DNA of 64,000 nt from Zoogloea sp. 1C4. Lineage in GTDB: Bacteria > Pseudomonadota > Gammaproteobacteria > Burkholderiales > Rhodocyclaceae. The notes under the pieces are model-generated. The model saw only the letters and a list, made by a program, of their open reading frames with translations, made no database searches and was not told the DNA's origin. The stretch spans positions 434,001-498,000 of the forward strand of contig NZ_SSXU01000001.1 of the NCBI RefSeq assembly GCF_009469605.1, written 5' to 3'. The position numbers and the translations under genes were made by a program. This document shows positions 3,199 to 38,373 of this stretch, in pieces; within the stretch, counting starts at the first letter, position 1, and each line of letters opens with the position of its first letter.

Positions 3199-5040
3199 GT
3201 GAAAAAAGCCGATCCCACCTCGCCAATCCCCGCAGTGGAAGCCATCCGGCGCTCCTGGGAGCGCTGCGCCGCCAACGGCCTGCGCAACAACGAACATCTG
3301 CCCGACGGCATCCTCCCCCGGGCCAGCCTGGCCGACCGGCTCGAAGGCAACGCGCGGCTGGTGGCCTACGCCCAGCCGATCATGGAGCACCTGCACCAGC
3401 AGATCGCTCGCTCGTCCTCCACCATCCTGCTGGCCGACGACGCCGGCATGATCCTGCGCGCAGTGGGCGACGCCGATTTCGCCGAACGCGCCGCGCGGGT
3501 CGCGCTGCAGCCCGGCGTGTCGTGGGCCGAATGCACCATGGGCACCAACGCCATCGGCACCGCGCTGGCCGAACAGCGCCCGATGGCGGTGATCGGCACC
3601 GACCACTTCCTTGAGCGCAACCGCTTCCTCACCTGCGTCGCCACCCCGATCCACGGCCCGGCCGGCGGCGTGCTGGGCATCCTCGACATCTCCACCTCGG
3701 CCCAGCTCAGCCAGATCCACGCCCAGGCGCTGATCCAGACCACCGCCGAGATCATCGAGAACCGCCTGATCGAGAGCATCCCCGAAGCCGCGGTGACGAT
3801 CCGCTTCCATCCCCAGGCCGAAGCGCTGGCCTCGCCCCTCGAAGGGCTGGCGGTGTTCAACGAGGCCGGCGAGATGCTCGCCTGCAACCGCCGTGGCGAA
3901 ACCCTGCTGGGCATCGGTGACAGTCGCAAGGAGCGCCCGGCCTTTTCGCGGATCTTCGAGACCCGCTGGACCACCCTCCTCGACCACGCCCTGTCGAGCA
4001 GCCTGCGCCCCACCCTGCTGTGCGCCCACGGCGGCCGCGAATTCGCCGCCCGGGTCCAGGCCGGCCGGCTCCAGGCCCTGCGCCCGGTGGCCGCCAGCGC
4101 ACCCGGCATGCCCGCCGCCCGCCGCGGCGTGACCCTCGAAGACCTCGACCTGGGCGACCACACCGTGGCCTCGGCGGTGCGCCGCGCCCGGCGCATCGTC
4201 GGGCTCGACATCCCGCTGCTCATCCAGGGCGAAACCGGCACTGGCAAGGAAGTCTTCGCCCAGGCTTTCCACCACAGCAGCCCGCGCCGCGACGGCCCCT
4301 TCGTGGCCATCAACTGTGCGGCCATCCCCGCCAACCTGATCGAGGCCGAGCTCTTCGGCTACCGGGCCGGCGCCTACACCGGCGCCCGCGGCGAGGGCGC
4401 CCGCGGCAAGCTGCGCGAAGCCCACGGCGGCACCCTGTTCCTCGACGAAATCGGCGACATGCCGCTGCGCCTGCAGGCCGTGCTGCTGCGGGTGCTCGAG
4501 ACCCGCCGGGTCACGCCCCTGGGCGGCGGCCCCGAGGAGGCCATCGACCTGGCGCTGGTGTGCGCCAGCCACCGGCCGCTCAAAACCCTGTGCGAGACCG
4601 GCGAGTTCCGTCCCGACCTGTATTTCCGCCTGTCGGCCATGAGCCTCGCGCTGCCCACCCTGCGCGAGCGCAGCGACATCGAGGCTCTCGCCCGCCGCAT
4701 CCTGCGCGACGAATCCCCCGACCGCCCCCTGCGCCTGGCGGCCGCCACGCTGGACGTGATCCGCCGCCACCAGTGGCCCGGCAACATCCGCGAGCTGAAG
4801 AACGTGCTGCGCCTCGCCACCGCCATGCTTGGGCCGGACGAAGCCACCATCACCCCCGACCACCTGCCCCACGACCTGATCGACGCCAGCGAGACGCGGC
4901 CCACCACGCAAAGCCTGCGGGCCGCCGAAACCCGGCTGGTGGAAGAGACCGTGGCCCGCCACGCCGGCAACATCTCCGCCGCCGCACGGGAGCTGGGCAT
5001 CACCCGCACCACCCTCTACCGCAAGCTGCGGCGCGGCTGA
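3199..5040 (+). CDS. sigma54-dependent activator, AcoR type
   Basis: Cytoplasmic transcription activator of 613 aa. The N-terminal part contains the AcoR-family SWERC motif and a GAF-like sensor region (about 50-200). The AAA+ domain carries Walker A GETGTGKE (344-351), a GAYTGA loop (391-396, variant of GAFTGA) that contacts sigma54, and Walker B GTLFLDEIGD. A Fis-type HTH closes the protein (GNISAAARELGITRTTLYRKL, about 590-610). Homologues regulate acetoin or alcohol oxidation genes. Position between the PQQ accessory cluster and cytochrome c551 suggests it controls alcohol oxidation. The GTG start is used because it keeps the conserved N-terminal motif. Confidence 0.88.
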   Translation: MKKADPTSPIPAVEAIRRSWERCAANGLRNNEHLPDGILPRASLADRLEGNARLVAYAQPIMEHLHQQIARSSSTILLADDAGMILRAVGDADFAERAARVALQPGVSWAECTMGTNAIGTALAEQRPMAVIGTDHFLERNRFLTCVATPIHGPAGGVLGILDISTSAQLSQIHAQALIQTTAEIIENRLIESIPEAAVTIRFHPQAEALASPLEGLAVFNEAGEMLACNRRGETLLGIGDSRKERPAFSRIFETRWTTLLDHALSSSLRPTLLCAHGGREFAARVQAGRLQALRPVAASAPGMPAARRGVTLEDLDLGDHTVASAVRRARRIVGLDIPLLIQGETGTGKEVFAQAFHHSSPRRDGPFVAINCAAIPANLIEAELFGYRAGAYTGARGEGARGKLREAHGGTLFLDEIGDMPLRLQAVLLRVLETRRVTPLGGGPEEAIDLALVCASHRPLKTLCETGEFRPDLYFRLSAMSLALPTLRERSDIEALARRILRDESPDRPLRLAAATLDVIRRHQWPGNIRELKNVLRLATAMLGPDEATITPDHLPHDLIDASETRPTTQSLRAAETRLVEETVARHAGNISAAARELGITRTTLYRKLRRG

Positions 5041-26930: not shown

Positions 26931-28160
26931 ATGCCTAAGCTGACCAAGACCTACATCGACAAGCTGACCGCACCAGCCGACAAAGAGGCGTTCCACTGGG
27001 ACACCGAAGTCAAGGGCTTTGGCTTGCGGGTCACGCCTACCGGCAAGATCACGTACATCGTGCAGGGGCGCGTAAACGGTAGCTCGCCCCGTATCAGCAT
27101 CGGCCCGCATGGGGTCTTCACTGTCGATCAAGCCCGTGAGGTTGCCCGCGAGCACCTGCGCAGCATGCGCATGGGCATCGACCCGCGCGCCGTTGCCAAA
27201 AAGGAAGCCGCCCAGCGTGTCACGTTGCGCGACGTGGCCGATGCCTACAAGCGTGACCGCCCGTTGAAGGACAGCAGCAAGGCAGAGATTGAACGCCATG
27301 TGACCACGACCTTCGAGGCATGGCTCAAGAAGCCGCTCAAGGACATCACGCGCGAGATGGTCACGAAGCGCTTCAACGAGGTCAAGACCAAGGGCACGCG
27401 CGGCGACGGGCCAGCCCCTGCCCAAGCTAATCAGTCAATGGCGGTGCTTCGCGCCTTGTTCAATTACGCCATCCGCGAATACCGCGAGCCGGACGGCGCA
27501 CCCGTGCTGACGGATAACCCCGTCGATGTTCTCTATAAGAAGTGGGTGCCGCTCAAGCCGCGCACCAGTCGCGTGCCGGACAGCAAGGTCGGCGCGGTTT
27601 GGTCATTCCTCGTCCAGTCCCGCGATCAAGCCTACAACCGCGACACGCTGGCAAGCCTTGATCTTGTGATGCTGCTCCTGCTCACTGGTCTGCGCATCGG
27701 GGAATGCAGCGAACTGACATGGGATCGGGTCAATCTTGAGGAAGGCTGGATTCACATTCCCGACCCGAAGAACAGCAACCCCGTCTGGCTGCCGCTATCC
27801 ACGCAGGCGTTGCAGTTGCTGACCACACGCCAGCGCGTCAAGGGAAGCCCGTTCGTGTTCTCGTCCTGGGGCAAGTGCGGGCACATTAAAGACCCGCGCG
27901 ACACCATGAAGAAGGTCAGCGAGGTAGCGGGCACCAAGATCACGCCGCACGACCTGCGCCGCACCTTCACGACCATCGGCATCGCTAATTGCGGCATCGA
28001 CTTGCACAAGGTCGAATTGCTGACAAACCATGTACCCAAGGGCGTGACCGCGCGCCACTACCTTGAAACTTCGCACCTGCAATATCTCAAGCCAGAGACG
28101 CAACGGATATCCGATTGGATCGAAGAACAGGCAAGCAAATTATCCAACATGGCCGCGTAA
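26931..28160 (+). CDS. int: tyrosine recombinase/integrase
   Basis: Site-specific recombinase of 409 aa of the phage/island class. The N-terminal arm-binding region (MPKLTKTYIDKLTAPADKEAFHWDTEVKGFGLRVTP) matches DUF4102-like integrases that target tRNA genes. The catalytic domain shows Arg in LLTGLRIGECSELTW, HxxR in PHDLRRTF, His in LLTNHVPKG and the nucleophile Tyr in ARHYLE. GAGGTG lies five bases before ATG. It sits 265 bp from the left attachment copy, as expected for the element's own integrase, and appears intact. Confidence 0.95.
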   Translation: MPKLTKTYIDKLTAPADKEAFHWDTEVKGFGLRVTPTGKITYIVQGRVNGSSPRISIGPHGVFTVDQAREVAREHLRSMRMGIDPRAVAKKEAAQRVTLRDVADAYKRDRPLKDSSKAEIERHVTTTFEAWLKKPLKDITREMVTKRFNEVKTKGTRGDGPAPAQANQSMAVLRALFNYAIREYREPDGAPVLTDNPVDVLYKKWVPLKPRTSRVPDSKVGAVWSFLVQSRDQAYNRDTLASLDLVMLLLLTGLRIGECSELTWDRVNLEEGWIHIPDPKNSNPVWLPLSTQALQLLTTRQRVKGSPFVFSSWGKCGHIKDPRDTMKKVSEVAGTKITPHDLRRTFTTIGIANCGIDLHKVELLTNHVPKGVTARHYLETSHLQYLKPETQRISDWIEEQASKLSNMAA

Positions 28161-28400
28161 AGTGGTGTTAGGGTAACGCCAACTTAGCCAGTCCCGTGCA
28201 ACGCGGGGCGGCTCGGTGCCGGAGACGGGGCACCTAAATATCCGTCTCCGTTAGCCGGTGGAGCAAGAGTAACCAGCCTCCCAGGACCCGGACACCCCAC
28301 CCCGTCGGGCAGGTGACAACATAAATGACGGCAAGCACTCGTCTTGCCTGACGCTCCCTATTGCATGCGCTGGCAAGGCACAGTCTGAGGACTACTTGCC
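28161..28400. other. integrase-HTH intergenic region
   Basis: 240 nt without a gene. Holds overlapping inverted repeats at 28215-28250 and a GGCAAG-N7-CTTGCC hairpin (28330-28348) just before the HTH gene. The hairpin could be a terminator for int or an operator for the HTH protein. Confidence 0.5.
28215..28250 (+). ncRNA. possible structured RNA element (pseudoknot or switch)
   Basis: GGTGCC (28215-28220) pairs with GGCACC (28229-28234), leaving the loop GGAGACGG (28221-28228). That whole loop is complementary to CCGTCTCC (28242-28249). The two helices interlock as an H-type pseudoknot or are mutually exclusive hairpins. There is no spacer between the helices, so steric strain is likely if both form fully. 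Whether it is transcribed is unknown. Confidence 0.35.
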
Positions 28401-28646
28401 ATGACCACACTTTCCGTACTCAGCCCCGATCTGCTGACGAACGAAGAAGCTGCCGCACTGCTCGGCATCAAACCCAATACCCTTGAAATCTGGCGCACGA
28501 AGGGCAAAGGCCCGGAGTTCGTGAAGCTCGGGCGTACCAAGTCCGCGCCCATTCGTTATCAGCGCCCCAGAATTTTCGAGTGGCTGGAGCAGCAATCCTT
28601 CAGCAGTACCAGCGCCTACGCGCCGAACGCCAAACAAGCTGTTTGA
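28401..28646 (+). CDS. small HTH protein, excisionase/AlpA-like
   Basis: DNA-binding protein of 81 aa. LLTNEEAAALLGIKPNTLEIWRTKGKGPEFVKLGRTKSAPIRYQRPRIFEWLEQQ is the MerR-like helix-turn-helix of the HTH_17/AlpA group. In integrative elements such proteins act as excisionase or as activator of int. Position after int, before the replication-type ATPase, fits this. A terminator follows. Confidence 0.8.
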   Translation: MTTLSVLSPDLLTNEEAAALLGIKPNTLEIWRTKGKGPEFVKLGRTKSAPIRYQRPRIFEWLEQQSFSSTSAYAPNAKQAV

Positions 28647-28734
28647 CGGTCTTGGCGACGAAAACCCAATGCAGCCTCGCAACTTGCCCACCCCGCACAC
28701 CCGCCGATAAGCGCTGCGTAATTCCATCAAGAAA

Positions 28735-28759
28735 AAAGCCACCGGGTCGGGGTGGCTTT
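28735..28759 (+). terminator. hairpin before ATPase gene
   Basis: AAAGCCACC (28735-28743) pairs with GGTGGCTTT (28751-28759) around GGGTCGG. It lies between the HTH gene and the ATPase start and would limit read-through into the ATPase gene. Confidence 0.65.
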
Positions 28760-28776
28760 GAAGAGGAACAACTGCA

Positions 28777-30228
28777 ATGGACAAACACACTTTAGGGCAT
28801 GCCGGTTCAGGCGGCTCGGATATTTCGCAGGCGGCGCAGCAGCCGCTACAGCGCGACCAGCACGCGTGCCAATGGGGTAGCGGCGGCCAGCATGCAAACG
28901 CAGCCCCAGCCGCTCCGCAGCCGCCCGCGCTCCCGTGGCTTGCCTCAGCCCAGCAGCGAAATCCGCACCTGACCCCGGAGGTTGCGCAGGAGCAAGCAAA
29001 GGCTGAAACCGCCAAGGCGTTAGTTGAGGCGCAGCGCGAAGCGACCAAGGCAGAGGAAACGCGCCTCAAGCAAGAGGAGGTGAAGCTCAAGCGCGACATG
29101 CTCAAGAAGGGCTTGGGTATCGAGGACAGCACGAACGGCCCCCGGTCGCTTGTTGGGCGCACGCTCAGCACCGTGCAGATGCGCGCCATCGACTGGCTGT
29201 GGACTGGCTGGATTCCGAAGGGGTACATCACACTTCTTGCAGGCGAGACTGGCGCGGGGAAATCGACAGTGCTGGCCGACGTTACTGCAAGAGTGACCAC
29301 AGGGGCGCCGTGGCCGGGCGAGTATCAACCGCGCCAGCCGGGCCGCGTCCTATGGCTTGGCAGCGAAGACAGCATCGAGGAAATGACTGCGCCGCGTCTG
29401 GTGGCGTGCGGCGGCAACCTAAATCATGTCATCGAGATTCAAGGCGTGACGCAACAAGGGAGGCGCAACACCTTCTCCATGCAAGATGACCTTGGCGAGA
29501 TTCGGCGCTGGCTGGTGGCTGCGAGGGATGAAGGATTCCCATTCTCCATGCTCGTCATTGACCCTGTGACCAGCTACCTGCCCGGGCAGAAGCTTCGCAA
29601 GGTTGATCTGAACGACGCGGGACAACTCCGAACCGTTCTTGAGCCTTGGCTGGTTCTCGCGCAGGAGCACAACATCGCTATCGTCTGTGTCACCCACTTT
29701 GCCAAGGACACGACGCGATCCATGCTCCATCGCGTGCTCGGGTCTGCTGCATTCACGCAGACCTGCCGTAGCCTGATGGCGATTGTCAGCCGGGAGGACG
29801 ACGGCCCCCACGCCAAAGCGATGGTGCAGGTAAAAGTGAACCTACCGGAGCATCCGGACGGCTCGTGGAAGTTCAGCACAGTGAAAGTCGATGTTGCAAC
29901 TGACCCGCGCAATGGCAAGCCCATCAGCGCGACGCGCCCGAATTGGGAGGAACTAGATAGCGCGCTGACCCCGCAAAGCATGGTCGGCAACGCGCGCGGC
30001 CCCGTTAGCAAGTACGAAGCGGCGTTCGGTATGTGGCTCAAGGCGTACTTCCTGACCACACGAGCGAACCTGTGGCAACCCATTCCCCAGGTCAAGCAGG
30101 CCGCGCTGTCAGCGTCAGTAGTCAGCGAACGTTGGTGGAACGAGCACAGCGGCAGCTACTTGGAAAAGCGGAACGTCGGAGGGGTTTGGTACTGCTCCCC
30201 GAAGAATCTGTATGCAGAAACTACGTAA
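28777..30228 (+). CDS. AAA family ATPase, RepA/DnaB-helicase type
   Basis: 483 aa. A low-complexity Gln/Ala/Pro-rich N-terminus and a charged coiled coil (about 68-108, AKAETAKALVEAQREATKAEETRLKQEEVKLKRD) precede the ATPase core. The core has Walker A GETGAGKST, a Walker B strand MLVIDPVTSYLPG and a sensor-like CVTHFAKDT. This is the RepA/AAA_25 group of hexameric helicases found in plasmids and phage satellites. It probably drives replication or maintenance of the element. RBS AGAGGAAC precedes the ATG. Confidence 0.8.
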   Translation: MDKHTLGHAGSGGSDISQAAQQPLQRDQHACQWGSGGQHANAAPAAPQPPALPWLASAQQRNPHLTPEVAQEQAKAETAKALVEAQREATKAEETRLKQEEVKLKRDMLKKGLGIEDSTNGPRSLVGRTLSTVQMRAIDWLWTGWIPKGYITLLAGETGAGKSTVLADVTARVTTGAPWPGEYQPRQPGRVLWLGSEDSIEEMTAPRLVACGGNLNHVIEIQGVTQQGRRNTFSMQDDLGEIRRWLVAARDEGFPFSMLVIDPVTSYLPGQKLRKVDLNDAGQLRTVLEPWLVLAQEHNIAIVCVTHFAKDTTRSMLHRVLGSAAFTQTCRSLMAIVSREDDGPHAKAMVQVKVNLPEHPDGSWKFSTVKVDVATDPRNGKPISATRPNWEELDSALTPQSMVGNARGPVSKYEAAFGMWLKAYFLTTRANLWQPIPQVKQAALSASVVSERWWNEHSGSYLEKRNVGGVWYCSPKNLYAETT

Positions 30229-30229
30229 T

Positions 30230-30272
30230 GTGGGGAATGTGCGTACTGTGGGGCCAAGGTGGGGAATGTGGG
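30230..30272. repeat. GTGGGG-rich short direct repeats
   Basis: GTGGGGAATGTG occurs at 30230-30241 and 30259-30270, with a third GTGGGG at 30248. A GGGCA-TTGG-TGCCC hairpin follows. Short iterated G-rich repeats right after a RepA-like gene could be an origin-type region, but three copies are few. Confidence 0.35.
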
Positions 30273-30319
30273 CATTGGTGCCCCCACCGACCACCATGGC
30301 ACCACCCTACAGGGTTTCC

Positions 30320-30814
30320 TTACGCATGCGCGGGCGCGCTGTCGCTGGTCTGTCTCGCAATGCTGTTGAATTTTCGCCAGACGTAAAACTCGCAGGCCAC
30401 GTTGTTCTCGTTCCAGCCGTGTTGAGGTGCGGCGGCTTTCGCTTCCTTGATCGTCGCTGTGGGGTTCGCATCCAGCCATGCCCAGACGGCGGCGCACAGG
30501 CCGCCATCCTTCGGGCGCTTAACCCCGTTTTGCTCGATGCGCGGCACCTTCGGGGCGGCTGCTTTCTTTGCCTTGCTTGTGGTCACCCCCTGCACGGCGA
30601 CAGGGGCGGCTACAGGCACGCTTTCGGTTGCGGTCGCCGGTGGGGTATTGGCCGCACCCTGCGCCGCGCCTGCGGGCGGCTGTTTCGCCTTCCAGCCGAA
30701 GCGCACCTCGTCGCCGTTCTTATGCACGGAGATTTCCACCAGTTCGGCGGGCACCCCTGCGGCAACGCCAGCGCGGCGGGCGTTCTCGCGTTTCGTGTAG
30801 GTCTTGGCTTCCAT
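30320..30814 (-). CDS. island-associated hypothetical protein
   Basis: 164 aa, opposite strand to the ATPase. The N-terminus (MEAKTYTKRENARRAGVAAG) is basic. A flexible Ala/Thr/Pro/Lys linker (about 48-95) leads to a C-terminal module, RIEQNGVKRPKDGGLCAAVWAWLDANPTATIKEAKAAAPQHGWNENNVACEFYVWRKFN. The C-terminal module is of a type I recall from plasmid and prophage proteins of unknown function, possibly DNA-binding. AGGAG precedes the ATG at 30814; the longer open frame upstream lacks support. Confidence 0.65.
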   Translation of the reverse strand: MEAKTYTKRENARRAGVAAGVPAELVEISVHKNGDEVRFGWKAKQPPAGAAQGAANTPPATATESVPVAAPVAVQGVTTSKAKKAAAPKVPRIEQNGVKRPKDGGLCAAVWAWLDANPTATIKEAKAAAPQHGWNENNVACEFYVWRKFNSIARQTSDSAPAHA

Positions 30815-31029
30815 GTCATTGCTCCTGTGTGGGTTGATGGAGGCGTATTGCAGGACAGGTCTCCGAGACTCGGCAACGACTTTTTGGATGCACGCGACAA
30901 CGAACGAATAACGCTGAATTACTTGTTCGACGCATGCAAGCTTTTGTTTTCCTTGCGGACCTTCGCTGATCTTTCGCAGCATGCAAGCAATGCGTAACAC
31001 AACGCGCCTAATCAAAGGAACTGTTCATC

Positions 31030-31740
31030 ATGCCGACCGCGATTGATGCACGTATCACGTCTTCTTTGCATGCCGAAACCCTCAAGGCGATTGAGGGGTA
31101 CGACGAGGAACTTACCGCCCCGATTCTCGCATCAGCACTGGAAGCGCTGGACGACGCTTACGTGACGCTCGGCAAGCTGCACGATGCGCGCGATGCGGCA
31201 AAGAAAAATCAAGCTTGGACAGAAGGGCAGCAGGTGCTAGCCGTATCTGATGCCGCATGGAAACAACAGCAGCGCCTCGCCAAGAAGTTCGACAACGTGC
31301 GCACCACGCTGGACAAGCAAATCGCACATTTCGAGCAGGAGTTGTCGCAGCCGCTCGAATCCCGCGCCGCAGTGACCATCGCTGGCGAGGTGCGAAGGTT
31401 CGTCAAAGACATGCCGGTTGAAGAGCGTCACAAGTTCGTGCGGCAGGCAATCGACGACGGTGACCACATCACCGTCAGCGCCGTGCTCGGTGCGCCTCCT
31501 TACCTGTCCGGTTTCGATGCGAACTTCCAAGAAACCTATACCCGCATGTGGTGGGAGCGCACGACGCCGCAACTGGCAACGAAGCTCAAAGCAGTGCGCA
31601 ACGCCAAAGCCGTTATCGAAGAACGCGGCGGGCTGCTCTTCAAGGAGATCGAGAAATCTATGGGTTCGACCTGGGCCAAGGTCAACGAGCTCCGCCATGG
31701 AAATGACAAGGCACTGACCGCTCTCAAATTCGGCGAATGA
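31030..31740 (+). CDS. hypothetical helical protein of the element
   Basis: 236 aa, no recognised family. Predicted mainly alpha-helical with coiled-coil character at about 60-110 (DAAKKNQAWTEGQQVL ... KKFDNVRTTLDKQIAHFEQEL) and a compact C-terminal region with TRMWWERTTPQLATKLKAVRNAK. No signal peptide or membrane segment. AAAGGAACTG precedes the ATG. It is first in a run of five same-strand genes to 33008, likely one transcript. Confidence 0.65.
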   Translation: MPTAIDARITSSLHAETLKAIEGYDEELTAPILASALEALDDAYVTLGKLHDARDAAKKNQAWTEGQQVLAVSDAAWKQQQRLAKKFDNVRTTLDKQIAHFEQELSQPLESRAAVTIAGEVRRFVKDMPVEERHKFVRQAIDDGDHITVSAVLGAPPYLSGFDANFQETYTRMWWERTTPQLATKLKAVRNAKAVIEERGGLLFKEIEKSMGSTWAKVNELRHGNDKALTALKFGE

Positions 31741-31779
31741 GCCTGATCGACGCTTGATGACATCAAAGGGGTTCATCCG

Positions 31780-32247
31780 ATGACCGAGATAGTTCAACCG
31801 GACTGGTTGAAGAGTTACGCGCCCAACACCGAACCGCCAGCAGGCAATCCGAACTGGAAGAAAGGCATGTCGAGCCCGAATCCGACCGGACGCCCTCGCG
31901 GCATAGTGGACAAACGCACCCGCGTGACACAAGCGCTGATGGACGACGCGCCGAAGATTGCCCGTGTGGTTATCGACGCTGCGCTTGCCGGAGACGTGCA
32001 GGCTGCGGGGCTGGTGCTTTCGCGGGTCGCTCCTGCCTTGCGTGCACAGACCGAGCGTGTGGAGTTCGACTTTGACGCCACCGCGCCTGTCGCCCAGCAG
32101 GTCGAACAGGTTTTGCAAGCCATCGCTGACGGCAAGGTCGCGCCTGATGTGGGCAAGCAAATAATCGAAGCAATCGGGGCGCTCAGTGCCGTCCGTGCTG
32201 TGGACGAACTCGAGAAGCGCCTGCAAGCACTGGAGGAAAAGAACTAA
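31780..32247 (+). CDS. DUF5681-like protein
   Basis: 155 aa. The N-terminal motif GNPNWKKGMSSPNPTGRPRGIVDK is the DUF5681 signature (GxSGNPxGRPKG), commonly encoded near phage small-terminase genes. The rest is helical (VTQALMDDAPKIARVVIDAALAGDVQAAGLVLSRVAPALRAQ). A DNA-packaging-related or DNA-binding role is possible but there is no large terminase here. The stop overlaps the next start (TAATG). Confidence 0.65.
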   Translation: MTEIVQPDWLKSYAPNTEPPAGNPNWKKGMSSPNPTGRPRGIVDKRTRVTQALMDDAPKIARVVIDAALAGDVQAAGLVLSRVAPALRAQTERVEFDFDATAPVAQQVEQVLQAIADGKVAPDVGKQIIEAIGALSAVRAVDELEKRLQALEEKN

Positions 32248-32627
32248 TGAGCATCATCGAAACAAAACGGAACCATGTCACCGCACTCGAGCCGCTGCCG
32301 GAGGACTGCATCGTCATGACACGTATAGGTAAGGCACGAGTATTCCAACCCATCACCGAATACGACGCTGCAGTGCGCGACTCGGTAGGTCTGGCGGATC
32401 ACATGGAAGCTCACATAGATGTCGTGCCGATGGGAATCGACGACTTCGTACGGATCAAATCTGGCCTGACCTTGGAGCAGTTCATTCGCACGCTGCCCAG
32501 GGCGGTGCTCGAAGAACTGCGGCAGGACAGCATCAACGGCTGTGCAGAAGCGGTTCGCTACTGCGATGACCCAGCAGTTCGCGCACAAGCTGCCGCAGTG
32601 CTTGTCAAACTAGGAGTCGTTAAGTGA
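32247..32627 (+). CDS. hypothetical protein of the element
   Basis: 126 aa, not recognised. The N-terminal half is mixed alpha/beta (EDCIVMTRIGKARVFQPITEY); the C-terminal half is helical (LTLEQFIRTLPRAVLEELRQDSINGCAEAVRYCDDPAVRAQAAAVLVKLGVVK) and HEAT-like. Translationally coupled to the gene before it by a TAATG overlap, and overlapping the next by 4 nt. Confidence 0.55.
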   Translation: MSIIETKRNHVTALEPLPEDCIVMTRIGKARVFQPITEYDAAVRDSVGLADHMEAHIDVVPMGIDDFVRIKSGLTLEQFIRTLPRAVLEELRQDSINGCAEAVRYCDDPAVRAQAAAVLVKLGVVK

Positions 32628-32806
32628 AAAACCTTCATGCAGATCCACGCGAGAACGCGCCCGAAAGCACTCCTCCCACCCAGGAGGAACTGAAGCTGAT
32701 CCATCACCACCGCATCAAGGCACAAGCAGACCGGCAAACCATGTCCGACTTGAATCTACTCCGGACGATGAAATTAGGCGAGGCGCTGCACAAGCTGAAG
32801 GACTGA
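32624..32806 (+). CDS. small hypothetical protein
   Basis: 60 aa, very polar, with a GTG start overlapping the preceding stop (GTGA). Predicted helical C-terminus (DRQTMSDLNLLRTMKLGEALHKLKD). No signal, no TM segment, no family recognised. Retained because of tight coupling within the gene run. Confidence 0.45.
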   Translation: MKNLHADPRENAPESTPPTQEELKLIHHHRIKAQADRQTMSDLNLLRTMKLGEALHKLKD

Positions 32807-32810
32807 CCAC

Positions 32811-33008
32811 ATGGCAAACACGCGGGGAATGCTGGCACGGTTGCGCAAGCTGGAGCGAGCCAACGGGCCGCCCCTGTTCAAGTTCATTGGCTCGCCGGAA
32901 GAGTTTGAAGCACATGCGGAGACAGGCATCGCGGCAGGTTGGTACGATCCGCGCGACATGCCACTTGTGCTGAAGGCTATCCGGCGTTGGCTGATCGATT
33001 GGCTCTAG
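32811..33008 (+). CDS. small hypothetical protein
   Basis: 65 aa, begins MANTRGMLARLRKLERAN, basic and helical, followed by FKFIGSPEEFEAHAETGIAAGWYDPRDMPLVLKAIRRW. Not recognised. Starts 4 nt after the previous stop and ends the five-gene run; the convergent secreted-protein gene ends 5 nt away. Confidence 0.5.
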   Translation: MANTRGMLARLRKLERANGPPLFKFIGSPEEFEAHAETGIAAGWYDPRDMPLVLKAIRRWLIDWL

Positions 33009-33013
33009 ATATG

Positions 33014-33595
33014 CTACAGATCGCCAGACGTTTCCTTCTTGCTCGATTGCACCGCACGGTCGGCACGTGAGCTGAAATAGACGGTTGATTCTTCGGTATT
33101 GCCTGCATACTTGCTGACAGACAGCTTCTGTCCATCAACCCCATTCCAAACCGTATCTACCTGAATGAATACCGCGCCAAAGCTGTTCTGCACGCCGTAA
33201 CGCTTTACCGCCGATGGCTTGCCGTACTTCTTCGTCAATTCCGCAAGAACGCTTTCATATGCGTAATTGCTGATTGTGAGCCATACACGCTCCAATCTTC
33301 CGCCAGAACCGATCACAACATTGGCAGTTGCCTTTTCGCCTGCAATGCTTGTTCGTCCATTGCAAACCTGCTTGCCCTGATGGCCTGCGCCACACTTTAC
33401 GGCATTGTCGTTGTGAAACTTTTGCCAAAACTCGTCACAAGGTTTCCCCGCTTGCTCACAGGCCACCTTGAGGCTTTCGACGACCTGATCAGGCATCACT
33501 AACGAATCAAGAGCCAATCCTTTGAAATCAAAGCCTGCCGCACTGACCGGGGACTCCCATGCCAGTACCAGAAAAAGCAAAATTGCTGTTCTCAT
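33014..33595 (-). CDS. secreted hypothetical protein of the element
   Basis: 193 aa with a signal peptide (MRTAILLFLVLAWESPVSAA). The mature part has four Cys (ACEQ, PCDE, KCGAG, VCNG) and a domain with LERVWLTISNYAYESVLAELTKKYGKPS, resembling small periplasmic proteins of unknown function. Start at 33595 is chosen for the signal peptide; 33610 adds five residues. It is divergent from the XRE regulator and its start lies next to the C-box-like array, so the regulator may control it. Confidence 0.65.
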   Translation of the reverse strand: MRTAILLFLVLAWESPVSAAGFDFKGLALDSLVMPDQVVESLKVACEQAGKPCDEFWQKFHNDNAVKCGAGHQGKQVCNGRTSIAGEKATANVVIGSGGRLERVWLTISNYAYESVLAELTKKYGKPSAVKRYGVQNSFGAVFIQVDTVWNGVDGQKLSVSKYAGNTEESTVYFSSRADRAVQSSKKETSGDL

Positions 33596-33615
33596 AAGCG
33601 CATCGCCCATTTGAT

Positions 33616-33654
33616 GCTTATAGGCACCGTGCCTATAGGCCGTGGCCTATAGGC
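33616..33654. promoter_or_regulatory. tandem C-box-like operators
   Basis: Three boxes: GCTTATAGGC (33616-33625), GCCTATAGGC (33631-33640) and GCCTATAGGC (33645-33654). The last two are identical and separated by CGTG. Overlapping perfect palindromes are CCTATAGGCC/GGCCTATAGG (32-nt spacing region 33632-33653) and TATAGGCAC/GTGCCTATA (33619-33637). This is the layout of operators bound by restriction-modification controller proteins, where TATA-centred boxes flank a GTG spacer. A degraded fourth box, GCCTATGGC, overlaps the regulator's start codon (33676-33684). Confidence 0.75.
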
Positions 33655-33679
33655 TACACGAAAGCCATGCTCTTAGCCT

Positions 33680-33964
33680 ATGGCGAGCGTGGAAGTTGCT
33701 AACATTGGAAAAATTTTTGGCGAGGTTCTACGACGACATAGGTCGGCTCGGAACATCTCTCAAGAGGAACTCGCCTTTCAGGCCGGCGTTGACCGGACGT
33801 TCGTATCGCGTCTTGAGCGCGGCATCAGACAGCCGACCATCACGACCTTGATAGGGATCGGGCAAGCTCTGGGGGTTTCCGCTGCGGATTTAGTGCAGGA
33901 GACGGAAAGTGAGTACCTGCGCGCGACAAAGCAAATAGAGAGTTATGGCACGGCGGGGCACTAA
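33680..33964 (+). CDS. XRE regulator resembling R-M controller (C) protein
   Basis: 94 aa, a single HTH_3 domain: FGEVLRRHRSARNISQEELAFQAGVDRTFVSRLERGIRQPTITTLIGIGQALGVSAADL. The recognition helix DRTFVSRLERG is close to that of C proteins such as C.PvuII (DRTYISRIERG). There is no Shine-Dalgarno sequence before the ATG, which would suit the leaderless mRNAs known for several C genes. No restriction or methyltransferase gene is nearby, so the target is unknown; candidates are itself, the divergent secreted protein and the cargo pair. Confidence 0.8.
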   Translation: MASVEVANIGKIFGEVLRRHRSARNISQEELAFQAGVDRTFVSRLERGIRQPTITTLIGIGQALGVSAADLVQETESEYLRATKQIESYGTAGH

Positions 33965-34165
33965 GGGGCGGCACAGGCCGCGATCTGCAGGCGCCGCCGC
34001 TGGGATACTTGCGAGGCCTACGCGCTGCGAGTAGCCGCGCGCAGGCCAGGAACCAAGAAACAGCAAACACGGAGTTATTCGGGCTTGCCTGCTAAGGGCT
34101 TGAGCTGCAAACGGGCGGGGCGATTCTCTCGACGGCGCGTAAGCCCTGCGTAACAGGCTGGTCGG

Positions 34166-34843
34166 CTAGGTGGCCGGTTGCTTGATGGCGCTCGCCTTTG
34201 GCGTCGTAACCCTGCGGGCGGAGTGAACGGCGAGGACGTTGCAAACGAATCGGATGCCACTCCAGCGGCCACTGAGCGCGGTAACGAGGAACTGAAGGGC
34301 GAACAGACCCACCGCAAGCCACAGTGCAGGAGACGCCGCGCCTACGACGAGTAGTGCCGCAGGCACGAGGACTACCAGCGCAAGCGACATGACCGCCATA
34401 TCGCGGTACAGCAGGAACAGCTTGTGCGCCTCGGCCACTTCGGGTTCGTTCGGAACCTGCTTGTAGAGCTTGTACCACTTGGAGTTCTGCTCGGTCGGGT
34501 CAGTCGGCAGCGTGCCGACGTTCTTCTTCAAGGCCACCATGTCGATACGCGGATCAGCGGGGCCATACCTCGTGAATGCTTCGGCTCCGGGCAGCACGCC
34601 GAGCGGCTTCCAATAGACGAGCGCCGACTTCACGTTGTGCGGCACCACGTTGACGATGAGCAGCACGACCACCGGCATCGCCGTTGTGGTCAACACGCGA
34701 CCGATGCTTACCTGCGTGAGCGATGCCCCCTTGACGAGTTCCGGCGCGACGAAAAACAGCACGGCAAGCACGTCGGCAACGGCAAGCAGGACGAGCCACT
34801 TCATGTTGAGTGACTTCAGGGAGCGTTCGCCGTTGATCCTCAT
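34166..34843 (-). CDS. four-TM protein coupled to MBL-fold partner
   Basis: 225 aa, no recognised family. Two N-terminal TM segments (WLVLLAVADVLAVLFFVAP and LTTTAMPVVVLLIVNVV), a cytoplasmic middle of about 80 residues with YWKPLGVLPGAEAFTRYGPADPRID and a TDPTEQNSKWYKLYKQV motif, then two C-terminal TM segments (MAVMSLALVVLVPAALLVVG and LWLAVGLFALQFLVTALSG). The ATG lies in the partner's stop (ATGA), so the two are translated together. A membrane effector controlled by the MBL-fold protein is the favoured inference. Confidence 0.7.
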   Translation of the reverse strand: MRINGERSLKSLNMKWLVLLAVADVLAVLFFVAPELVKGASLTQVSIGRVLTTTAMPVVVLLIVNVVPHNVKSALVYWKPLGVLPGAEAFTRYGPADPRIDMVALKKNVGTLPTDPTEQNSKWYKLYKQVPNEPEVAEAHKLFLLYRDMAVMSLALVVLVPAALLVVGAASPALWLAVGLFALQFLVTALSGRWSGIRFVCNVLAVHSARRVTTPKASAIKQPAT

Positions 34844-35703
34844 CCCCTGTACTCCGTATCGATGGTGTAGTTGTCGTTCGTAACGGTAAACTGAATCCAA
34901 CCATCGTGCCGCGTGGTCAGAACATGCCGATCCTTCATGGTCGTGCGAACTCGGACACCTTGATCGCGCACGACCTTGCGATAGTCCGGCACCATCTTCT
35001 GCGTCTCATGCTCAATGGGCTTGTCAGAGATGACCACAACGCTCGGCGTGAAGTAGTTGAAGATGTCGGCGCAATAGCCGCTTTCGCGTCCATGGTGAGA
35101 AGCGACCAGAACATCCGTGCCGACAAGCTCGGCGCGGAAGTCCGCGCGTTGCAGCAGCGCTTGCCAACCAGCCTTCTCCAGATCGCCGGGAAACAGTATC
35201 TTGAAGTTGGCGTACTTAATGAAGACAACCAGACTGAGGTTGTTCGTATCGGTGAAGGTTGGGTGCGTATTCCAAAACGTGGTCGCCGAAATGCCACCCA
35301 TATATAGGTCGAAGGGTTCGTCAACGGGCAAGGTGAACGTGGAGCACGCAGAGACGTAACGCTCAGCATCAGCACTCAACGGTCCACTTTGGCGCTTGAT
35401 TCGGCGCATCTGCTCGCCCGTGTAGCTAGGGTTTCGGAAGAGCACGGGGGTATAGATGCCAGCATCCCACAACCCTTGCAGATCGCTCATGTGGTCTTGG
35501 TCGGCATTGGTGATGAACAGGTAGTCGAGCCTGTTCCTACCAAGGGCTTTTGTAATGTAAGTGCTTGGTCGCCAGTCGTAGGCGGAACCGGAATCAATCA
35601 TTGCAAGACGGCCAGCGTACTGGCCGAGGATGTGCTGCACCATGGCGCAAGCGCCGTGTTGCACATCCCAAATGACAAGCCGCATCTCCCCCTGCAACGC
35701 CAT
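34840..35703 (-). CDS. ComEC-like metallo-beta-lactamase-fold hydrolase
   Basis: 287 aa, soluble, with the core of the ComEC/Rec2 MBL domain: LVIWDVQHGACAMV, MIDSGSA, LFITNADQDHMSDL, ILFPGDLEKAGWQALL, VASHHGRESGY and VVVISD. The first metal motif reads N66-A-D68-Q-D70-H71 where HxHxDH is usual, so the first His is replaced by Asn while later ligands remain. ComEC-type domains act on DNA or RNA; activity here is untested. GGGGGA five bases before the ATG at 35703 decides the start over 35730. It is the first gene of a pair. Confidence 0.8.
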   Translation of the reverse strand: MALQGEMRLVIWDVQHGACAMVQHILGQYAGRLAMIDSGSAYDWRPSTYITKALGRNRLDYLFITNADQDHMSDLQGLWDAGIYTPVLFRNPSYTGEQMRRIKRQSGPLSADAERYVSACSTFTLPVDEPFDLYMGGISATTFWNTHPTFTDTNNLSLVVFIKYANFKILFPGDLEKAGWQALLQRADFRAELVGTDVLVASHHGRESGYCADIFNYFTPSVVVISDKPIEHETQKMVPDYRKVVRDQGVRVRTTMKDRHVLTTRHDGWIQFTVTNDNYTIDTEYRG

Positions 35704-35827
35704 ACGTTCCCCCAATTCCGTTTCAATCAACGGAATCTGGGGCTGCCTTGCCGATATTCAAGGTCTCCTGCGTACCGGCATCGTGGCGCACTGTTTACGG
35801 TGTGCTTACGGGGCACAAAGTTGCCAC

Positions 35828-35864
35828 CAACAAGAAAGCCCCGCTAGTCGGGGCTTTCTTGTTG
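35828..35864. terminator. strong hairpin near right end of the element
   Basis: CAACAAGAAAGCCCCG pairs with CGGGGCTTTCTTGTTG, a perfect 16-bp stem with a CTAGT loop and flanking A/T runs. It lies downstream of the reconstituted tRNA (minus strand) and upstream of the MBL gene. It resembles the terminator at 26527-26554 in position and in the ATCTTCAAACT sequence between it and the tRNA. Confidence 0.85.
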
Positions 35865-35917
35865 CCATCTTCAAACTACTGCGAGCTTGGTAAATTTTCT
35901 CCAAGTTCTTGTTTTTA

Positions 35918-35974
35918 TTGGCGGAAGCTCAGGGATTCGAACCCTGGAACCCTTGCGGGTTGCCGGTTTTCAAG
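35918..35974 (-). repeat. attachment site copy 2 (within tRNA-Ser)
   Basis: 57-bp copy of the tRNA 3' half supplied by the element, differing from 26610-26666 at one base of the variable-arm loop. Identity ends in the anticodon loop, at the point where the chromosomal 5' half begins. Confidence 0.9.
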
Positions 35975-36006
35975 ACCGGTGCAATCGACCACTCTGCCAA
36001 GCTTCC
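35919..36006 (-). tRNA. tRNA-Ser (anticodon UGA)
   Basis: 88 nt with encoded CCA. Acceptor stem GGAAGCT/AGCTTCC, anticodon stem CCGGT/ACCGG around loop CTTGAAA (anticodon TGA), long variable arm AACCC-GCAA-GGGTT and T stem CAGGG/CCCTG. All stems pair, so the gene looks functional despite serving as the integration site. Confidence 0.96.
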
Positions 36007-36023
36007 AAACTCATCCTACATCA

Positions 36024-36064
36024 GTTTTCAAGACCGGTGCAATCGACCACTCTGCCAAGCTTCC
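36024..36064 (-). repeat. extra copy of the tRNA-Ser 5' half
   Basis: 41 bp identical to 35966-36006 (anticodon loop to 5' end of tRNA-Ser), separated from the intact tRNA by 17 bp. It lacks the 3' half. It may be the scar of an earlier integration or excision at the same locus. Confidence 0.85.
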
Positions 36065-36084
36065 AGATTCTCTCTACGGAGGCC

Positions 36085-36121
36085 ATCAAGACCCGTGCAG
36101 CAACCACGCTGCAGCACCTCC
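36085..36121 (-). repeat. degenerate third copy of the tRNA 5' half
   Basis: On the minus strand this reads GGAGGTGCTGCAGCGTGG, then TTGCTGCACGGGTCTTGAT. It aligns with the tRNA-Ser 5' half with about a quarter of positions different. It appears to be an older remnant of the same kind as 36024-36064. Confidence 0.55.
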
Positions 36122-36980: not shown

Positions 36981-38294
36981 TCAGGCCCGCTCGAAGAGCG
37001 CGATGGATTCCACGTGGGATGTCTGCGGGAACATGTTGGCGATGCCCGCCCCCATCAGCCTGTAGCCCTTCTCGTTGGTCAGCACCGCGGTATCCCGGGC
37101 CAGCGTGGCCGGGTTGCACGACACATAGACGATGCGCTTCGGCGAACACACGCCCAGCGCCTTGACCACTGCGATCGCCCCTTCCCGGGGCGGATCGATC
37201 AGTAGCTTGTCCAGCGGCCCGAGCGCCGCCAGGCTGTCTTCGGTCGCCTCGAACAGGTTGGCCGCGTGGAACTCGCAGCGCTCACCAAGGCCATTGTCGG
37301 CGGCATTCTGGCCCGCCCGGCGGACCAGCGCGTCGCTGCCCTCGACACCCACCACATAGGCGCCCAGACGGGCAATCGGCAGGCTGAAGTTGCCGAGCCC
37401 GCAGAACAGGTCGGCGATCCGCTCGCCGGGCTTCGGGTCGAGCAACTGCATCGTCCGGCGCATCAGCACCCGGTTGATGCCCATGTTCACCTGGGTGAAG
37501 TCGGTGGGCCGAAAGGCCATCGACACACCGAACTCCGGCAGCGTGTAGGCCAGCCCCGGCGCATCCTTCGGAAACAGCCGACGCGCCGAATCCGGGCCGC
37601 TCGGCTGCACCCACACCTGGATCGACTCCGCCTCGCCAAAGGCGACCAGCCGGGCCGTGTCGGCCGCGGAGAGCGGCACCAGATGCCGGAACACCATCAC
37701 CGTGATCCCCTCGCCCACCGCAATCTCGATCTGCGGCAGACGATCCGGCGCCGACATGCCGGAAATCAGCGCCCGCAAACGCGGCACCATCGCCGACACA
37801 TGAGGCGGCAGAATCGCGCAGCTTTCCATTGGCGCCACGTAGCTGCTGCGCCGCTCGTGAAAACCGATCAGCACGCCGCCCTTGCTCGGCACCATCCGCA
37901 CCGACAGCCGCGCGCGATAACGATAGCCCCAGGTCGGGCCGACGATCGGCGGGTAGAGCACATCCGGCCGAGCCCGGCCGATGTGCCAGAGGGCGTTCTC
38001 CAGCACCCGCTGCTTCGCCGCCACCTGGGCGCCGGATTCCAGATGCTGCATGCTGCAGCCACCGCACACCCCGAAGTGGGGGCAGCGCGGCTCGACCCGC
38101 TGGGCGCTGGCCGAAATCACCCGCGTCACATCCGCCACCTCGTAGTTCGGCTTGACCTTGTAGGGCGTGAATTCGACCCGTTCGCCGGGCAAGGCGCCCT
38201 CGATAAAGATCGTCTTGCCGTCGACGTGGGTGACGCCGCGCCCCTCGTGATCAAGGGATTCGACAACGGCTTCGCGGGGGGCTGCTGCGTGCAT
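36981..38294 (-). CDS. rlmD: 23S rRNA (uracil-1939-C5) methyltransferase
   Basis: SAM-dependent rRNA methyltransferase of 437 aa. An N-terminal TRAM domain ([36 protein letters not shown]) leads to the [4Fe-4S] cluster motif [17 protein letters not shown]. The C-terminal SAM domain has [13 protein letters not shown], and [11 protein letters not shown] holds the catalytic Cys. The ATG at 38294 matches the start of the TRAM domain. Divergent from the ribosomal oxygenase gene. Confidence 0.95.
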
Positions 38295-38373
38295 GGCAAT
38301 ACGGTCGAAACAGGAAGGGCGCCATTTTAGCGGCGGGCACAGCCGTTGCAATCCGGCGCGTTATAATTGCCGG

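Follow-up and report, generated by a model that had tools for sequence, protein, structure and literature searches.

A C-protein-type regulator behind a conserved paired operator in a Zoogloea island: a probable switch apart from restriction-modification

A 94-residue regulator encoded in a genomic island of Zoogloea sp. 1C4 and the operator in front of it are read here, with moderate confidence, as a stand-alone switch of the C-protein type, one that would activate and limit its own expression apart from restriction-modification (R-M) and would repress a divergent gene through a third operator box. C proteins are the textbook timers of R-M. In the present case the protein family, the operator and the constraint acting on it, the lack of detectable R-M genes nearby and the changing neighbours are properties of the sequences themselves, and the switch is found as a small unit in islands as well as at varied chromosomal sites. 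Features are collected in Table 1, in coordinates of the window, that is, of the whole 64-kb stretch of DNA analysed.

Table 1. Regulator, operator boxes and surrounding features of the island in window coordinates.
Feature	Position	Strand	Description	Basis
Tyrosine integrase of the regulator-carrying island	26931..28160	+		Phage_integrase 4e-18
Divergent gene	33014..33610	-	198 aa, signal-peptide-like N-terminus; candidate target of box 3	ORF inspection
Box 3	33616..33625	-	GCTTATAGGC, 1 mismatch; minus strand GCCTATAAGC	box search and alignment
Box OL	33631..33640	+	distal C-box of the regulator promoter, GCCTATAGGC	exact
Spacer	33641..33644	+	CGTG between the paired boxes	pairwise identity
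Box OR	33645..33654	+	proximal box, GCCTATAGGC; relatives mostly GACTATAGGC	exact
Regulator P0001	33680..33964	+	C-protein-like XRE/HTH_3 regulator, 94 aa	ORF list, profile, structure matches
4TM protein (name from the earlier reading)	34166-34900	-	convergent with the regulator	
MBL-fold protein	34840-35730	-	candidate phage-defence family PDC-M48B	PADLOC, E 3.6e-52
tRNA-Ser	35919-36006	-	island end	

Relationship of the regulator to C proteins

A sequence-only reading of this DNA had described an XRE protein with the recognition helix DRTFVSRLERG behind TATA-centred boxes and had likened it to C proteins, and both points hold. P0001 was matched by Pfam HTH_3 (3.2e-14), and its top PADLOC model was Control_protein (5.7e-15), a weak match to the REase_II model (0.0022) also falling over the HTH. 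Searching PDB with the single sequence gave C.BclI (5.8e-9) and C.AhdI (6.9e-9) as best matches and wild-type C.Esp1396I at 8.2e-6. With a profile built from 26 relatives, the corresponding values were 8.2e-17, 6.7e-14 and, for C.Esp1396I forms, 1.5e-11 to 1.1e-9, all top ten PDB sequences being C.BclI, C.AhdI or C.Esp1396I forms. These were followed by Neisseria NHTF (3vk0, 1.3e-9), SinR (1.5e-8) and QseC (9xz9, 1.2e-7), with P22 C2 (2.3e-4) and 'Regulatory protein C' 4yba far down the list. Since the latter reached only 2.8e-4, below SinR, not every C protein is close to the regulator family. The AlphaFold model (pLDDT 89) had C.BclI as its first Foldseek match (1.0e-5), with ClgR practically level (1.3e-5). 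P0001 thus has the size class (an HTH protein of about 75-100 residues) and the closest similarity expected of a C protein, with ClgR level by fold, and is, as judged from its sequence, a member of that family.

The same comparisons bear on the alternative of an ordinary XRE autorepressor, of the phage or RstR type, acting on inverted-repeat operators with neither activation nor delay. The HTH_3 superfamily is indeed broad, the best NCBIfam name for P0001 is RstR (43.4 bits, under the cut-off of 80), phage repressors match at 31-45%, and ClgR equals C.BclI by fold. However, C proteins rank above phage repressors in the PADLOC, PDB sequence and PDB fold searches, the family profile separates P22 C2 widely from C.BclI, and both the operator geometry and the start lacking a Shine-Dalgarno (SD) motif are those of C genes, so that we regard a plain autorepressor as unlikely.

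Passages of PMC4041747 name R35, T36 and R46 as the main base-reading residues of C.Esp1396I, with R46 and T36 reading the G and C of the half-site GTC. These residues align to R39, T40 and R50 of P0001, of which R50 is invariant and the other two nearly so among 26 aligned proteins. The half-site here being GGC, the G and C contacted by the R46 and T36 equivalents are kept.

Scanning genome contigs with the regulator produced at least 44 loci, and the best 18 by E-value (L006-L023), picked by protein match, were compared with the window. They are 53-83% identical to P0001 over the matched segment, the 17 aligned at full length (without L022) being 47-82% identical; several come from metagenome assemblies and could be mis-binned, and their tree is poorly resolved, with unreliable long branches. 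The median dN/dS of 0.096, from 70 usable of 120 pairs among 16 sequences (L021-L023 outside the set; 50 pairs dropped for dS saturated or >=3), points to purifying selection on the regulator coding sequence. In one relative, L014, a second regulator-like stretch (3272-3859), 51% identical, stands immediately behind the first.

A paired operator conserved across relatives

The two identical boxes with a CGTG spacer and the third box 15 bp upstream, already noted in the earlier reading, were recovered at the coordinates of Table 1, with box starts spaced 15 and 14 bp. Allowing up to one mismatch, the box occurs three times in the window, always at 33616-33654; shuffled sequences gave a mean of 0.77 occurrences, and three or more in 4 of 100. 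The paired 21-mer, at up to three mismatches, had no match in 100 shuffles, and the 5.02-Mb genome holds a single place that matches it, on both strands. With this single site, the action of the regulator is probably local.

Among the 18 nearest relatives the pair takes the form GCCTATAGGC-CGTG-GACTATAGGC, clean in 16 and degraded in two (L011 and L018). With the window included, OL and OR align without gaps in 19 of 19 loci; in a search that imposed the 14-bp spacing, the pair shows 0-1 mismatches in 17 of them, 4 in L011 and 5 in L018, and OL alone 0-2 in 18 of 19, with 4 in L018. Mean pairwise identity is 0.90 for OL, 0.92 for the spacer and 0.93 for OR, then 0.77 for the TACA behind OR; outside the pair it is 0.30 in the distal flank, 0.53 in box 3 and 0.41-0.58 from TACA to the ATG, and the first coding bases past the ATG reach only 0.42. 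In 10 of the 19 loci a box 3 (up to two mismatches) precedes OL by 15 or 16 bp, with a chance expectation of about 0.0015 per locus under a simple random model; it is missing in the other nine.

C-protein operators are described in the sections of PMC3115060 that treat them as paired TATA-centred palindromes with a conserved central GT and outer TG...CA. Two TATA-centred boxes with a GT spacer are likewise present just 5' of the regulator, in the letter class GGC instead of GTC, which bears out the C-box architecture first proposed from the window. Close homologues with operators of the phage-repressor type were also looked for, and none was seen: all 18 share the C-box pair, including its degraded forms in L011 and L018. 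Because OR equals OL in the window (GCC, not GAC), the affinity difference used by C-protein switches is not obvious here.

The regulator start codon lies 21-25 bp from the end of OR in the 19 loci, counting in L017 and L022 from an ATG three bases upstream of the scored base and in L020 from a GTG. No SD-like motif (seven 4- and 5-mers tried) occurs at -20 to -4 of this start in the window or the 18 relatives, which extends an earlier remark on the window to all 19 loci. C-gene mRNAs are often leaderless, according to parts of PMC2997769 and PMC4824078, and the SD absence together with the spacing of box and start suggests that the regulator mRNA is probably leaderless too. A consensus scan of both strands from 32900 to 36100 scored no sigma-70 promoter, a null result that counts against the proposed switch; it fits an activator-dependent promoter, yet is not evidence for one. 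The degraded fourth box that had been proposed over the start codon (33676-33685, GCCTATGGCG) did not survive comparison: it has three mismatches, and its core GCCTATGGC recurs, by eye in the alignment, in just 4 of 19 loci, so that it is probably mere start-codon context.

Beyond the nearest relatives, a second set of 17 loci (L024-L040, 49-64% identical) carries a related site ending, by eye, in CCGTGGAC. In a survey of 399 genomes from the order, three (G000, G277 and G371) had the regulator (E <= 1e-22), each with the operator directly upstream. The 21-mer at up to three mismatches occurs in seven of these genomes, the same three included; the 3-kb loci of the other four, G253 (two mismatches) and G033, G191 and G224 (three each), contain no such HTH by motif search, and given that a reversed control pattern matches roughly 18 genomes per strand, these four sites were taken as chance. 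Across 398 genomes of the phylum (E <= 1e-17), the window's own genome and one distant relative (G015, locus L068, 46% identical) were recovered; in the latter, at about 625-1740, the regulator has GGACTATAGTCC boxes and is divergent from a gene whose protein shows, by eye, a nuclease-like motif (VIVEAKF). Viral contigs held one distant regulator relative (44%) and no exact match to two operator forms. A phage origin was accordingly set aside, phage-record matches being just 31-45% and the viral contigs lacking the exact operator.

Changing neighbours without detectable restriction-modification genes

The regulator-carrying island (26931-36006) encodes, besides the integrase, an AAA_25 ATPase, a DUF5681 protein and unknown backbone genes, and looks satellite-like. 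Part of this backbone is shared with Rhodocyclaceae L007 and Zoogloea L017. In L017 the integrase is 59% identical, the chromosomal ORFs downstream are related to those of the window and several of the backbone genes are present, whereas its island yielded no relative of the divergent gene, the 4TM gene or the MBL gene of the window. That the switch was recruited for other cargo, as had been suggested, is a plausible idea in the case of the divergent secreted gene, whose likely -10 is formed by box 3. The idea fares worse for the MBL/4TM pair, whose two genes overlap each other, are transcribed toward the regulator and show no link to it; no box (up to two mismatches) lies near the start of the pair, which is thus not evidently part of the switch.

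No R-M enzyme was found among the 13 window proteins between 26931 and 35730 scanned with profile libraries (9 or 10 proteins each), so the absence of methyltransferase and endonuclease noted at the outset stands. Around the 18 relatives, 141 neighbour ORFs (>=100 aa, lying no more than about 4 kb from the regulator, under a longest-first choice that also admits wrong frames) gave no PADLOC R-M model at E <= 1e-10, an absence incompletely seen at L008, L014, L019 and L022, whose contigs are short (3.0-6.7 kb). The 17 PADLOC families matched include Control_protein, which is the regulator itself, reverse-transcriptase, SoFic, MzaA, DpdF and SspH. The defence models mad2, mad3 and mad8 had 2, 2 and 3 members, which were taken for look-alikes, mad2 also matching the chromosomal ORF 36981-38351 of the window. 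In Dyella (L020, 8379-10879, +), a 213-aa gene and a caspase-domain (Peptidase_C14) gene come next after the regulator and are co-directional with it, in the place that the endonuclease has in C-R operons.

The missing R-M genes could mean that the regulator is the decaying remnant of a lost R-M system. L011 would suit this, with its degraded operator, changed recognition helix and broken divergent gene, and so would the degraded operator of L018. Against it stand the low dN/dS and an operator kept over 19 loci in which no R-M gene was detectable; together they make the orphan state look old and selected, and we consider the remnant explanation very improbable. Locus L011 itself (about 2030-2684, Bordetella hinzii) looks decayed, its four-mismatch pair being accompanied by a lipoprotein-like divergent gene in broken frames.

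Besides the regulator, no gene family is widely common to the 18 loci. Several of the neighbours are housekeeping genes; those named by Pfam (25 of 129 families shown for the 141 ORFs) include LpxB (L008), HSP33 (L007), Cpn60 (L013), EF-G (L015), PmbA/TldD (L016), MutS and topoisomerase I (L018), two M16 peptidases (L010) and DnaG (L021). On ORF inspection 15 of the 19 loci have a divergent candidate, whose first start codon stands 51-182 bp 5' of the regulator; L014 and L018 have none, that of L011 is broken and L020 has a short one that looks AlpA-like by eye. The candidates carry Sel1 repeats (L015), a glycosyltransferase (L021) or DUF6402 (L016), the rest having no Pfam family above cut-off, and they share no common family, the near copies L017/L022 and L021/L023 apart. 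In the window, the 198-aa protein has no Pfam or PADLOC match and only a sub-cut-off NCBIfam one (13.6 bits), and no relative of it was found on PLSDB plasmids.

Under a crude hydrophobicity rule, exported or transmembrane-type N-termini were counted in 8 of 14 non-redundant divergent candidates (L011, L014, L018, L020, L022 and L023 left out, G277 added) and in 24 of 144 other ORFs (Fisher one-sided P 0.0015). In G277 (L069, 5215-8306), inspected by eye, the divergent gene is outer-membrane-like (205 aa), and the regulator is followed by RadC-like and tyrosine-recombinase-like ORFs.

Since 4 of 19 loci lack a clear intact divergent ORF, control of such a gene does not extend to every locus, and the regulator might act on its own gene alone. 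The divergent gene would then be merely nearby and the unit kept for an activity in trans, for instance exclusion, in which R-M systems arriving with a matching C-box would be pushed into early endonuclease expression; mutual exclusion via C proteins is known for R-M systems. The variation of neighbours from locus to locus and the regulator of L018, which sits between a co-directional small gene and topA, are in keeping with this. Nevertheless, the viral contigs (exact matches), the window's own genome and the 399 genomes of the order yielded no R-M system with this operator. The R-M-linked plasmid relative, L061 of E. coli (50% over 64 residues), with an annotated endonuclease and a methyltransferase behind its regulator gene, has another operator type, and box 3 would stay unexplained in 10 of 19 loci. 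We therefore think a regulator serving itself alone improbable.

Proposed switch and comparison with known systems

The preferred reading, a self-activating and self-limiting switch that also represses the divergent gene, draws on the published C circuit, for which the relevant part of PMC3758141 gives high affinity at OL, cooperative filling of OR and an OR TATA within the -35 of the C/R promoter; the operator geometry of the window fits this scheme. A dimer at OL would recruit polymerase to the regulator's own leaderless promoter, providing positive feedback, and at higher regulator levels a second dimer at OR, over the -35 region, would limit the regulator. Read on the minus strand, box 3 puts TATAAG at -12 to -7 relative to the divergent start codon (ATG, 33610), and L006 has TATAGG at the matching register; box 3 thus covers the likely -10 of the divergent gene, so that rising regulator would shut this gene off. 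The divergent gene could then be expressed early and silent late, or its expression could be bistable. Binding, activation, repression, the leaderless start and the identity of the target are what we infer, and the sequence points most probably to repression of the divergent gene by the regulator. More speculatively, the unit might be a portable, bistable epigenetic cassette repeatedly recoupled to divergent genes of unrelated kinds, with a preference for those of exported or membrane proteins, giving phase-like or entry-timed expression of surface proteins with no DNA rearrangement, an extension that we regard as doubtful.

A near-invariant operator, no R-M genes detected and a differing neighbour almost everywhere suggest that the timer is a reusable part, maintained alone by selection. 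Searches of the open-licence PMC literature brought up no account of this operator, nor one of an orphan C-protein clade.

Considering the closest known systems, P0001 resembles C.BclI, C.AhdI and C.Esp1396I (PvuII-type operator class) in (i) family and fold, (ii) base-reading residues, (iii) paired boxes with a central GT and (iv) a probably leaderless gene. It differs in that no R-M gene was detected near the 18 nearest relatives, in half-sites GGC/GCC where theirs are GTC/GAC, in a third box that 10 of 19 loci have at the divergent gene, 15-16 bp upstream, and in that nothing is evidently co-transcribed downstream of the regulator in the window. Linked R-M genes having been looked for and not found, the regulator is not classed as part of an R-M system.

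C-like regulators near pilV/shufflon regions of plasmids (L062 and L063) also have paired boxes, like GACAATAGTC/GACTATAGTC, and no R-M gene in the flanks shown (the PLSDB gene tables being incomplete), but they are only 38-39% identical and have other operator letters and different neighbours. Their regulators lie at about 4000-4280, with GACTATAGTC-like boxes beside pilV, and L062 carries a site-specific integrase as well.

The nearest functional precedent is QseC/QseM of Mesorhizobium ICEs. According to portions of three reports, qseM is controlled by the adjacently encoded HTH protein QseC (PMC8627217), qseC and qseM are divergent genes (PMC5882170), and qseM repression constitutes a bistable epigenetic switch (PMC10359603). 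QseC, whose entry 9xz9 ('quorum sensing controller protein') is among the family-profile matches, is likewise an HTH protein outside R-M beside a divergent gene; it controls that gene, and for P0001 such control is our reading. Mesorhizobium ciceri L065, QseC-like by position only, has a divergent DUF2285 gene across a 79-bp gap with a GAATACTC-CGTGGTT-GAATACTC element. The operator letters differ, and QseM is an antiactivator, while the divergent gene here varies by locus and in the window, being a 198-aa secreted type outside any Pfam family, is not a QseM-type DUF2285 antiactivator. By the QseC/QseM precedent, C-like proteins working outside R-M are already in print, and the present system offers a direct test of whether autoactivating switches of the C type drive accessory genes in a bistable or entry-timed manner in systems other than QseC/QseM.
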